64,000 nucleotides of DNA from Methylophaga thalassica MP (GTDB taxonomy: Bacteria; Pseudomonadota; Gammaproteobacteria; Nitrosococcales; Methylophagaceae): contig NZ_AFIG01000001.1 in NCBI RefSeq assembly GCF_000214595.1, forward strand, positions 2,150,382 through 2,214,381, read 5' to 3'. The translations under genes and the position numbers were made by a program. A model generated the notes under the pieces. It had not been told where the DNA came from and ran no database searches. It worked only from the letters and a program-made list of their open reading frames with translations. This document shows positions 34,113-36,703 of the stretch, in pieces (the stretch's first letter is position 1; every line of letters begins with the position of its first letter).

Positions 34113-34964
34113 TTAAGCGGAAACAGATAATGCTGGTTCACGCTCAAGATAGCTCATGTCATTCAGCTTGGCATATTCCATCACCTCACTTTGTGTCACA
34201 ACGCCATCACCATCAGCATCTGCATTCTCAAAATTATCTGCCAGAGCACTGAATAGATCACTCAGCGGTGACTCTTCAGATGACATATCAGATAACTGCT
34301 TCTGTGTCAGACCTTCGTCAGACATTGCACCACCACCTTGAGGTGGCACAGGCATAGCAATGTCATTATCTTTTGCGTAAGCCATTGCCTCAGCTTGACT
34401 GACAACACCGTCTTCATTGGCATCAGCTTCATCGAAATTTTCGGCTAATGCACTAAACAGGCTACTCATTGGTGAATCTTCAGATGACATCTCGGAAAGC
34501 TGACCTTGTGTCAGCCCCTGTTCTGCCATTGCTACTGGTCCCTGTTCACCTGGTGGCGGTGCTACATCGATATCATTGGCTTCAGCAAAACTCATGGCTT
34601 CATCACGCGTAATAACACCATCACTATCCATATCGGCTTCATCAAAATTATCCGCCAATGCGCTGAATAATTCGCTCATAGGCGAGTCATCAGATGCCAT
34701 TTCAGATAATTGAGATTGGCTAAAACCATTATCTTCTTCAGGTGGTGGAGGCATTCTGGCTCGTACCCCAGTCTCATTCGCCGCCAATCCACTTTCGTAA
34801 GAACCTGATCCAATACTTGTAGATGATAATGTTGAGCTTGCAGTACTCAATGCTGTTTGTAACAGAGAAGACTCGTCTGAACCTGATGAACCCGACTTTT
34901 TCAGATTGTTCAGATACGAGTACAGCATACTGCCATTACTGGCACTTATCCCGTTAATACTCAT
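34113..34964 (-). CDS. Triple EF-hand repeat protein
   Basis: 283 residues, no cysteine, no signal peptide. A Ser-rich N-terminus (MSINGISASNGSM) is followed by three tandem repeats of about 70 residues. Each repeat has LSxMxSxxSPxSxLFSALAxNF, then a canonical EF-hand calcium loop: DMDSDGVITRDE (111-122), DANEDGVVSQAE (181-192) and DADGDGVVTQSE (249-260), with all chelating positions filled. Repeats are joined by Pro/Gly linkers. ATG 34964 has AAGGA eight bases upstream; a GTG one codon earlier is possible. An exact CpxR-type repeat lies 131 bp upstream. Inferred: a calcium-binding envelope or exported protein of the local stress regulon. Confidence 0.85.
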   Translation of the reverse strand: MSINGISASNGSMLYSYLNNLKKSGSSGSDESSLLQTALSTASSTLSSTSIGSGSYESGLAANETGVRARMPPPPEEDNGFSQSQLSEMASDDSPMSELFSALADNFDEADMDSDGVITRDEAMSFAEANDIDVAPPPGEQGPVAMAEQGLTQGQLSEMSSEDSPMSSLFSALAENFDEADANEDGVVSQAEAMAYAKDNDIAMPVPPQGGGAMSDEGLTQKQLSDMSSEESPLSDLFSALADNFENADADGDGVVTQSEVMEYAKLNDMSYLEREPALSVSA

Positions 34965-35017
34965 CACATATTTCCTTATGTTAAAAACAAAAGTAGCTCT
35001 AAATAAATAAAGAACTA

Positions 35018-35293: not shown

Positions 35294-35782
35294 CTATGCA
35301 ATAATCGTGATGTGTGGCTGATTATTGTCTATAGCATTAAATGCTTGCCGGTAACCTTCAGTTCTATTGTTTGACGACGAATTCGTCTTTTTGTCCTTAT
35401 CAGCTGAGTCATCTTTCATCACCGTTCGCACTAAGACACCGCTGTCATCTATACTCAAATTCAGAGGTCGTTGCTGTTTTCCGATCTGGTTTTCATTTCC
35501 CTTCAATCGTATAGCAAGTTCAGCGGCCAGCTCGTATTGACTCGTTGATGTTTGTTTTTGGCTATCTATAGATTCTGGAGTAGAACTATCCAAAGAAAAT
35601 TGTTCCTGGTTTCTTAACTCAATAACAGAAATATCCTGGAGCGCTTTTTCTACGGTGTCTTTATCGAGAAAATTTTGTTCACCTTCATTCAACTTTTTAT
35701 AAATAGCATTGGCCTTCTCAGTAATATTCGACTGTCGTGTGTACTGAGACTTCAGACTGTTAGATGTACCATTTATAGTCAT
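35294..35782 (-). CDS. Unknown protein under a triple CpxR-type operator
   Basis: I do not recognise this 162-residue protein. It is hydrophilic, cysteine-free and has no signal peptide or membrane helix. The start MTINGTSNS resembles that of the neighbouring EF-hand protein (MSINGISAS). NITEKANAIYKKLNEGEQNF is helical; the middle is Ser/Thr/Gln-rich; a short strand region (PLNLSIDDSGVLVRTVM) is followed by an Asp/Lys/Asn/Ser-rich linker and GYRQAFNAIDNNQPHITIIA. ATG 35782 has GGTGGAG upstream; a start seven codons earlier is less likely. It has its own promoter region and terminator, supporting a real gene. Confidence 0.72.
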   Translation of the reverse strand: MTINGTSNSLKSQYTRQSNITEKANAIYKKLNEGEQNFLDKDTVEKALQDISVIELRNQEQFSLDSSTPESIDSQKQTSTSQYELAAELAIRLKGNENQIGKQQRPLNLSIDDSGVLVRTVMKDDSADKDKKTNSSSNNRTEGYRQAFNAIDNNQPHITIIA

Positions 35783-35869
35783 AACTCCACCCTTATCAAT
35801 CAAAGGATGACGATAGTCTTCCAGCTATGCCACCAATTTAGCCAACACTATATTTCTTTTAACTCATTG

Positions 35870-35911: not shown

Positions 35912-36060
35912 GACCATAACGCTACCAGGCAAACTAATTCATAAAACGCAAAATTGATCGATAATTTAATCGGGCACTCAAATAAAACCTGCCAAGATTC
36001 ATAGTAACAACATGAATTTATTATAAAAAACTGATAGCAGAAAATTAATCCAACAAATAC

Positions 36061-36089
36061 TTGATAATTTAAATAATAATCATTATCAT
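36061..36089 (+). promoter_or_regulatory. Sigma-70 promoter overlapped by a Fur box
   Basis: -35 TTGATA (36061-36066), a 17-bp spacer and -10 TATCAT (36084-36089), each 5 of 6 to consensus. TAATAATCATTATCA at 36074-36088 matches the Fur 7-1-7 consensus at 13 of 14 informative positions and covers the spacer and -10, so iron-loaded Fur would block the promoter. No protein gene follows for over 200 bp. Confidence 0.72.
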
Positions 36090-36095
36090 TTGTAA

Positions 36096-36202
36096 CCGAT
36101 GGAGTTGATAGGAATTTGTATTAACAAAGACTGACCTGCTCCCTCTCTCTTAAATCTGAAAACCGAGTTTGTTGCCAGTCTTTCGGCTGGCAACTTTTTT
36201 TT
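36096..36202 (+). ncRNA. Candidate iron-regulated small RNA (RyhB/PrrF-like function)
   Basis: Predicted transcript of about 105 nt from a Fur-box promoter to a strong intrinsic terminator, in a 522-bp gap without a credible reading frame. A small 5' hairpin is possible (TTTGT/ACAAA, 36115-36128). A C/U-rich unstructured stretch (ACCTGCTCCCTCTCTC, 36134-36149) is complementary to Shine-Dalgarno-like sequence and would be a natural seed. The terminator stem with eight U resembles an Hfq-binding tail. I see no primary-sequence match to RyhB. Alternative: a terminated leader of msrB. The rest of the gap (35912-36060 and 36203-36304) shows only AT-rich DNA and a possible msrB -10 (TACAAT, 36266). 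Confidence 0.6.
36171..36202 (+). terminator. Intrinsic terminator of the candidate small RNA
   Basis: A perfect 8-bp stem GTTGCCAG/CTGGCAAC with an 8-nt loop, followed directly by eight T. It ends about 100 bp upstream of msrB. Confidence 0.92.
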
Positions 36203-36304
36203 CTCTGATTTCACTCCCCCTTCTTCAAAAAATTCAGTTAGGCTGATTTTTCAGCATGTTTTGCCTACAATAGTCAGCTTCGTAGGTACGACTTCAAAAA
36301 TAAA

Positions 36305-36703
36305 ATGCCCAACAAACTTCTAAAATCCGATGCTGAGTGGCGGCAAGAACTCAGTGAAGAGCAGTTTTATGTGACTCGTCAATCTGGAACCGAGCCCGCA
36401 TTTTCTGGCATCTACGTCGATCATGATGATGAAGGTGTATACCGATGTATATGTTGTAAGCAGCCTTTATTTTCATCCGACAATAAATTTGATTCAGGTT
36501 GTGGCTGGCCAAGTTTTTCTGCACAGATATCGCATGGTGTGGTGAATCATCTGGCAGATCACAGTCATGGTATGGATCGTACAGAAGTACGCTGTCAGTC
36601 CTGCGACGCACATTTAGGTCATATCTTTGATGATGGACCGGCTCCGACAGGGCTGCGTTATTGTATTAATTCGGTCGCTCTCGATTTTGACGACAAAAAC
36701 TGA
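36305..36703 (+). CDS. msrB: Peptide-methionine (R)-S-oxide reductase
   Basis: Repairs oxidised methionine (R-sulfoxide) using thioredoxin. 132 residues. The zinc site comes from two CxxC pairs ([10 protein letters not shown] and [12 protein letters not shown]), the core is [10 protein letters not shown], and the catalytic Cys lies in RYCINSVAL. The ribosome site is weak. The following GIY-YIG gene overlaps its 3' end. Confidence 0.96.

Follow-up and report, generated by a model that had tools for sequence, protein, structure and literature searches.

Does the short stretch that follows a histidine kinase region and precedes msrB in Methylophaga thalassica MP encode an iron-responsive small RNA, and if so, what would that RNA regulate? 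A preliminary description of the locus had proposed a Fur-responsive analogue of RyhB and PrrF, possibly of an undescribed family. We followed this up in the window (the whole 64,000-nt stretch of DNA that was analysed), in the genome that it comes from (G000; 3.26 Mb, 3 contigs) and in related genomes. We put the probability at roughly three in four that positions 36061–36202 are a free-standing, Fur-repressed and probably Hfq-dependent sRNA gene whose product would repress sodB under iron starvation. The locus is very probably a real gene for a Fur-controlled, trans-acting sRNA, with sodB as the best-supported target, and it is best read as RyhB- and PrrF-like in its predicted function, yet as a separate, undescribed family. 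The features referred to below are as follows.

36061–36066, + strand: −35 hexamer TTGATA, its TTG kept in 8 of 9 aligned genomes
36074–36088, + strand: Fur box of the 7-1-7 type, TAATAATCATTATCA, over the spacer and the −10, with one mismatch to TGATAATNATTATCA
36084–36089, + strand: −10 hexamer TATCAT, separated from TTGATA by a 17-nt spacer
36096–36202, + strand: predicted small RNA of ~107 nt, its start inferred from the −10 and its end from the U-tract; orthologues in nine other genomes
36098–36104, + strand: 5′ arm GAUGGAG, pairing with CUCCCUC (36139–36145) and so closing a variable hairpin
36105–36138, + strand: variable inside of the 5′ hairpin, 66% mean column identity, changing in length
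36139–36167, + strand: conserved core CTCCCTCTCTCTTAAATCTGAAAACCGAG, 99% mean column identity, 26 of 29 columns invariant in nine genomes
36146–36168, + strand: part of the RNA that is predicted to bind the sodB leader, with 22 bp and one unpaired base in the co-fold with the G000 leader
36171–36194, + strand: terminator stem-loop GTTGCCAGTC-TTTC-GGCTGGCAAC, 10 pairs including a U-G
36195–36202, + strand: U-tract T8, directly after the terminator stem-loop
36266–36271, + strand: separate −10-like TACAAT of a presumed msrB promoter, before msrB in all nine sRNA-carrying genomes examined
36305–36703, + strand: msrB (TIGR00357), a neighbour outside the RNA

The promoter TTGATA-17-TATCAT is present as first described, is sigma-70-like and matches 10 of 12 hexamer positions. 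Hexamer pairs of this kind occur at chance frequency between 35000 and 37400 (7 found, 6.5 expected), and the case for the promoter is therefore made by the combination of elements and their conservation. The Fur site that had been claimed over the spacer and −10 is also there. Fur-type sites with at most three mismatches number 12 in the window against 5.95 expected, and TAATAATCATTATCA is the sole one with a single mismatch (one has two, ten have three); the box has a mean column identity of 88% in nine genomes, and AATCATTA is present in every one of the nine alignment rows. At the level of sequence, the locus has what would be a Fur operator overlapping its promoter, as in the class of Fur-repressed iron-sparing sRNAs. 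BLAST found similar boxes elsewhere in G000: at L003 both a TonB receptor and an ECF sigma gene are adjacent, at L006 a TonB receptor and at L007 a further ECF sigma gene, and the box at L002 is flanked by a ferritin-domain gene on one side and a response regulator on the other. These gene neighbours support the motif at 36074–36088 as a likely iron operator in this species, and they fit the initial reading of the locus. As separate observations, around position 1500 of L111 in G018 a strong hairpin close to a T-run lies ~90 bp behind a Fur-like palindrome, possibly a further short transcript under Fur control or else a terminator that works in both directions; and next to the candidate gene the window holds a 169-aa ORF (35294–35803, − strand) without a Pfam match, which is 44–52% identical in three near relatives where neighbouring genes are 85–99% identical and has no tblastn match in the more distant sRNA-carrying loci. 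Further on lies an EF-hand repeat protein with internal segments that are alike (34113–34967, − strand).

The preliminary description had pointed to the gap upstream of msrB in relatives, and it is there that the unit recurs: we found it in 10 of 24 Methylophaga genomes, in all ten upstream of msrB. The arrangement is beyond chance because it and the same core are found at the same place in nine genomes other than the window's own. BLAST with the window DNA against 58 genomes, its own included, gave eight relatives at E-values of 6e-61 to 2e-13, and the ninth, G058, which is of the same species and has a 100% identical MsrB, was recovered by a covariance model. This model (R1), run on 63 genomes of the order, matched ten genomes at 3e-20 to 5e-14; it was built from nine units, so that nine of the ten strong matches are there by construction and G058 is new, and its E-values are rough. 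A weak eleventh match fell in G010 (E 0.01), and those in G007 and G009 (E 0.08–0.19) are chance-like. Within the alignment of nine genomes, mean column identity is 56% upstream of the unit, 85% in the promoter, 85% in the terminator and 60% between terminator and msrB. The core, at 99%, is better conserved than the first 60 nt of msrB, at 82%, and the C/U-rich segment whose conservation had been in question lies within it. By its pattern of conservation, then, the locus appears to be a discrete terminated unit maintained independently of the neighbouring gene, which is another trait of the class.

The distribution is narrow. The exact 23-nt core pattern occurs in seven records among 84,980 species genomes, all of them Methylophaga and including M. 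sulfidovorans DSM 11578, in a search that may leave out records near the window's own. The 14 other genomes of the genus comprise G010 with a diverged unit, G002 with a contig edge at msrB, ten with another sequence and no unit upstream of msrB, and G001 and G003, in which only a distant msrB paralogue was found and whose assemblies are 55% and 85% complete. A tree of MsrB and SodB unites all ten carriers and G002 in a single clade (support 0.998), and G002 groups with the carriers except G015 (0.963); from this place and from its sodB leader (−23.7 kcal/mol, see below) we predict a unit in G002 as well. A covariance model that includes the promoter gave 47 weak matches (E 0.1–1) beside the ten strong ones, and the 26 that were inspected held no comparable unit; these were five leaders that by eye are bfd-like, other Fur-box promoters and chance-like matches. 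The core pattern with up to two mismatches occurs at 99 places in G012, G019, G011, G002 and G009, and none of the 30 inspected has a Fur-like box upstream (the best has 5 mismatches). In G007 (L235) and G021 (L236) we also noted a short frame that starts with MANGLA, has AGGAG in front and ICNKSIGMFSFYSLIFLSPS inside, and runs into a hairpin resembling an intrinsic terminator; it is alike in both genomes and could be a small gene or an RNA.

The unit of G010 (L095:1463–1576) appears to be a diverged homologue. Its promoter is similar, with a Fur-like site in which two mismatches were counted by eye, and is followed by a GAUGGU...ACCAUC hairpin, CUCUCUCUGA and a terminator. By eye, the closing helix has U-A in place of an A-U pair of the window. 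It directly precedes the gene for an ABC-F ATPase, which follows msrB in most other genomes. A second covariance model matches it at E 6e-13, by construction since G010 was included.

Turning to the RNA itself, the predicted transcript folds at −29.9 kcal/mol (z −3.74), and the part preceding the core, taken alone, is unremarkable (z −0.27). Terminator-like sites in the examined region number 5 against 1.9 expected. The preliminary description was right about the T8 tract, and the stem before it, given there as 8 bp, has the 10 pairs listed above. The helix between GAUGGAG and CUCCCUC forms in all nine folds, one pair shorter in G015; five of its six pairs are invariant and the sixth is kept in eight of nine genomes, and because it is almost invariant this helix says nothing by itself. 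In the terminator 94.4% of cells are paired and two pairs are altered on both sides. Over the whole structure 95.8% of cells are paired, which no shuffle matched; its number of double-sided changes was equalled by 30 of 500 shuffles and by a slide of −3 columns, so that covariation lends weak support. The C/U-rich stretch and the 5′ hairpin of the first account both exist, but the half CUCCCUC is sequestered by GAUGGAG and the exposed pairing segment is UCUCUUAAAUCUGAAAACCGAGU, which is mostly open between hairpin and terminator in all nine folds. Mean unpaired probabilities in all nine are 0.62–0.86 for the open parts of the core and 0.17–0.33 for CUCCCUC. As the stretch complementary to Shine-Dalgarno sequence is partly hidden, the adjoining UCUCUUAAAUCUGAAAACCGAGU is the likelier seed.

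The exposed core is antisense to the leader of sodB, which in the sRNA-carrying species holds ACTCGGTT and, 10–15 nt on, AGGAGA. Pairing between core and sodB leader is predicted in all nine carriers tested, at −19.9 to −24.6 kcal/mol and z −3.2 to −5.4 relative to shuffled leaders, of which 0–2 in 300 did as well; for G000 the value was reached by 7 of 1000 shuffled cores and 1 of 1000 shuffled leaders. This bears out sodB among the targets that had been suggested, and a conserved antisense pairing with the start region of an iron protein is, as a prediction, what the class would have. The window's core was used for all species, and the 29-nt core differs from it by one base in G008 and by two in G015. 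At the pairing site, the sodB leaders of carriers are unlike those of relatives without the RNA: in the G007 clade, where no sRNA was detected, all six genomes give −11.0 to −12.5 kcal/mol (z +0.05 to −0.9), and intermediate leaders occur in G009 (−17.9), G012 (−17.6) and G010 (−16.8). ACTCGGTT is also preserved in the sodB leader of G012, which belongs to the neighbouring group and has no detected sRNA. When the core of G010 is matched with the sodB leader of that genome, the pairing is not significant (shuffled leaders do as well in 51 of 500 cases, shuffled cores in 100 of 500). The association between sRNA and sodB leader amounts to few independent events because the carriers fall in one clade, and four of the sodB leaders of carriers are nearly identical. 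In a co-fold, the two RNAs reach −57.1 kcal/mol against −39.0 apart, the duplex includes the Shine-Dalgarno sequence and both sRNA hairpins are retained; for this the sodB mRNA was taken, by eye, to begin 9 nt before CTCGGTT. By itself the sodB leader is partly folded in the nine carriers, with unpaired probabilities of 0.41–0.57 for CTCGGTT and 0.21–0.51 for AGGAG.

We also compared sodB with other genes. Across eight of the ten carriers, sodB averages −21.5 kcal/mol (weakest −19.9), and 26 other orthologous leaders average −10.7 (sd 2.8, best −15.9); these were the 26 of 53 window genes with usable orthologues in at least three of seven relatives (4–8 genomes each), their starts chosen automatically by start codon and Shine-Dalgarno sequence. 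A single genome does not prove the target, since among the 53 other leaders of the window genome ung (−22.1) beats sodB. We rejected ung as a target, as it is strong only there and weaker in seven relatives (−10.5 to −17.4; mean −14.6). A search for CTCGGTT-N6-28-AGGA gave 7 places in G000 and 15 each in G004, G005 and G014 (reversed control pattern: 23, 24, 11 and 5), with the sodB leader among them in all four. In G000 sodB is the only one of the seven with a start codon and a frame of at least 60 codons just behind; among the 23 of 45 places inspected in the other three, the sodB genes of G004 and G014 qualify together with five others by a loose rule, of which one alone, L232 in G004, starts with ATG. 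This second CTCGGTT...AGGA site stands directly before a 381-codon frame beginning MSFRPRYTGLIERYRDRLPVANDTKLISLGEGNTPL, whose product may be a threonine synthase.

The sodB gene was matched in 19 of the 20 genomes searched (G058, G001, G003 and G011 were outside the search), and the profile search gave no match in G019. Its product is an Fe-type enzyme (NF007832, 355 bits against a cut-off of 348) and is the only PF02777 protein in 18 of the 19 genomes that have one. The exception is G022 with two copies (C1:10010 and C1:3063171), which share the same 70 nt before the start and lie close to opposite ends of a single 3.1 Mb contig; they are probably overlapping assembly ends. With SodB switched off, a cell would thus have no manganese enzyme from this family to fall back on, and to repress the sole superoxide dismutase of the family would be odd unless another such enzyme exists. 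Two further targets that had been suggested fared less well. Leaders of acnB showed no pairing signal (z −1.9 to +0.95 in ten leaders; the start picked in G000 differs and may be wrong), and acnB was rejected. For sdh, the sdhC model TIGR02970 had no match in any of 20 genomes of the genus, in a search whose positive control matched 6 of 14 known genomes, so that a divergent sdhC is possible; sdh too was set aside. Taken for itself, this lack of matches to the cytochrome b of succinate dehydrogenase would fit an incomplete TCA cycle.

The evidence must also be weighed against other accounts of the same transcript. It could be a real Fur-controlled sRNA for which sodB is not the main target, its core serving many mRNAs by way of the C/U half or the start of leuC. 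RNAs of this kind have many targets, as the accessible part of one report states (PMC7377471), and the start regions of leuC do pair well with the core in G000, G004 and G005 (−16.8 to −17.6, z −3.5 to −5.0). But this pairing is absent in G014 (−7.0) and G015 (−5.2) and strong in G016 (−20.4) and G007 (−16.7), where no sRNA was found and where it may reflect another RNA or chance, and the C/U half is sequestered. Because the leuC pairing is inconsistent with the presence of the sRNA we do not claim leuC as a target, and we regard this account as unlikely. For the record, the leuC complementarity lies just before the start at L179, L183, L185, L186 and L187. Less probable still is that transcription from 36096 yields a 5′ leader or attenuator of msrB with conditional read-through of the terminator. 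The unit does lie upstream of msrB on the same strand in ten genomes, its terminator ending 80–108 nt before the gene in the nine measured; yet a hairpin and T-run follow the core in all nine aligned units, and the stretch from the terminator to msrB contains TACAAT, which is also present in 9 of the 11 genomes that have no sRNA there (the two exceptions are G009 and G010). Moreover, the homologous unit of G010 precedes the ABC-F gene and not msrB, and a leader role leaves the antisense match between core and sodB unexplained. The separate promoter-like element and the placement in G010 led us to reject this reading, and an ordinary msrB leader, which the preliminary description had named as an outcome that would speak against an sRNA, is disfavored.

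We give equally little credence to a Fur-regulated micro-ORF, in which the RNA would encode a small peptide, whether or not it also works as an sRNA. In G005, G006 and G014, GGAG precedes a frame of 13 codons that begins with ATG and ends in TLPLS-stop inside the core (L061, L064 and L067, with the peptides MTCITQALTLPLS, MRCDSGALTLPLS and MPCQARALTLPLS, respectively), and G004 has an analogue started by TTG. Against this, a 2-nt difference shifts the frame in the window's own clade, whose only ATG lies inside GAUGGAG at the 5′ end with no room for a Shine-Dalgarno sequence. The frame of the window, MELIGICINKD, stops before the core, and in G008 and G022 it continues through it; the conservation of the core extends beyond the stop codon, and GGAG is itself engaged in pairing with the core. 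The initial statement that there is no credible coding frame agrees with our finding of no conserved frame, the frame leading into the core differing between species. A micro-ORF as the main product was rejected, as it exists in three or four species and is frame-shifted in the window's clade; in G005, G006 and G014 a dual-function RNA is possible.

We thus favor a Fur-repressed sRNA acting on sodB, and suggest that it would work in the following way. With iron at hand, iron-loaded Fur on the box over the promoter would keep transcription off. When iron falls, the ~107-nt RNA would be made, ending at the terminator at 36202. Its 5′ hairpin would hold CUCCCUC and leave the next 23 nt single-stranded, and these, probably on Hfq (a family matched in all 24 genomes, in 23 above the cut-off), would pair with the short sodB leader and cover its Shine-Dalgarno sequence. 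Translation of Fe superoxide dismutase would then stop, and the sodB mRNA would likely be degraded. More speculatively, this could be a young RNA family of one clade that is a near-full antisense of the sodB leader alone, a dedicated switch for what seems to be the sole Fe/Mn-type superoxide dismutase of the cell, independent in origin of RyhB, PrrF, NrrF and HrrF, with the G010 unit as an early form with other targets and the micro-ORF possibly read in three species. If that tentative scenario were true, the switch arose in bacteria in which no succinate dehydrogenase, usually the main client, was found. In the literature searched, which left most subscription papers outside its coverage, there was no iron-responsive sRNA of Methylophaga (PMC11526790 and PMC3840354, as far as examined, deal with other subjects), and by that measure the RNA would be the first iron-responsive RNA regulator known from this marine methanol user. 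It would add an RNA without detectable sequence kinship to those that converge on silencing sodB, would make the recurrence of sodB as a target testable in an organism with one superoxide dismutase of that family, and would provide a clade-restricted case for the joint origin of a small RNA and its target site.

How does the unit compare with the iron-responsive sRNAs already known? The absence of primary-sequence kinship to RyhB and PrrF, noted at the outset, is upheld by a covariance search in which no Rfam family reaches its threshold at 36061–36202. The best match over the whole unit is PrrF (RF00444) at 24 bits and E 0.024–0.042, against a gathering score of 90 bits. The PrrF model covers the promoter too, like the unit 36061–36202, and the match is gone when only 36095–36215 is scanned. 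It rests, therefore, on the −35/Fur box and the terminator and not on the body, and we rejected membership in this family. The G010 unit gave two weak matches, PrrF with the higher score (25 bits, E 0.26) and ncS54 with the better E-value (0.12). RyhB, for which we take Rfam to include a model, is absent both from the two gathering matches of the window and from the six matches at E up to 10 for 36000–36310. RyhB is ~90 nt long, ends in an intrinsic terminator and pairs over the start region of sodB with the help of Hfq. In Escherichia coli its gene has a Fur binding site directly in front and sdhC is one of its targets, according to the accessible part of PMC7377471. The Methylophaga unit resembles it in the Fur site directly in front, the terminator and the predicted pairing at the sodB start, and differs in its core and in that sdhC was not found in the 20 genomes of the genus that were searched.

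In the literature examined, and as far as the accessible parts of the two reports go, the closest parallels are HrrF and BrrF. BrrF of Burkholderia, an analogue of RyhB and PrrF from dRNA-Seq, is likewise described as unlike the known Fur-regulated sRNAs in sequence, and sodB drops under iron depletion only with BrrF present (PMC7377471). By the same partial account no Fur box stands directly before BrrF, which probably shares its expression with hemP; most BrrF pairings leave the Shine-Dalgarno sequence free, whereas the Methylophaga RNA is predicted to cover that of sodB. HrrF, a ~97-nt Fur-regulated RNA limited to one family, the Pasteurellaceae, and unlike RyhB, PrrF and NrrF, has an invariant internal segment (positions 29–64), Fur boxes in front and a conserved genomic place at pmbA-hpt, its regulon being left to future work in the part of PMC4144887 available. 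As far as that description allows the comparison, HrrF and the Methylophaga unit occupy different loci and are alike in being bound to one clade and in having a Fur box, an invariant segment and a fixed place in the genome.
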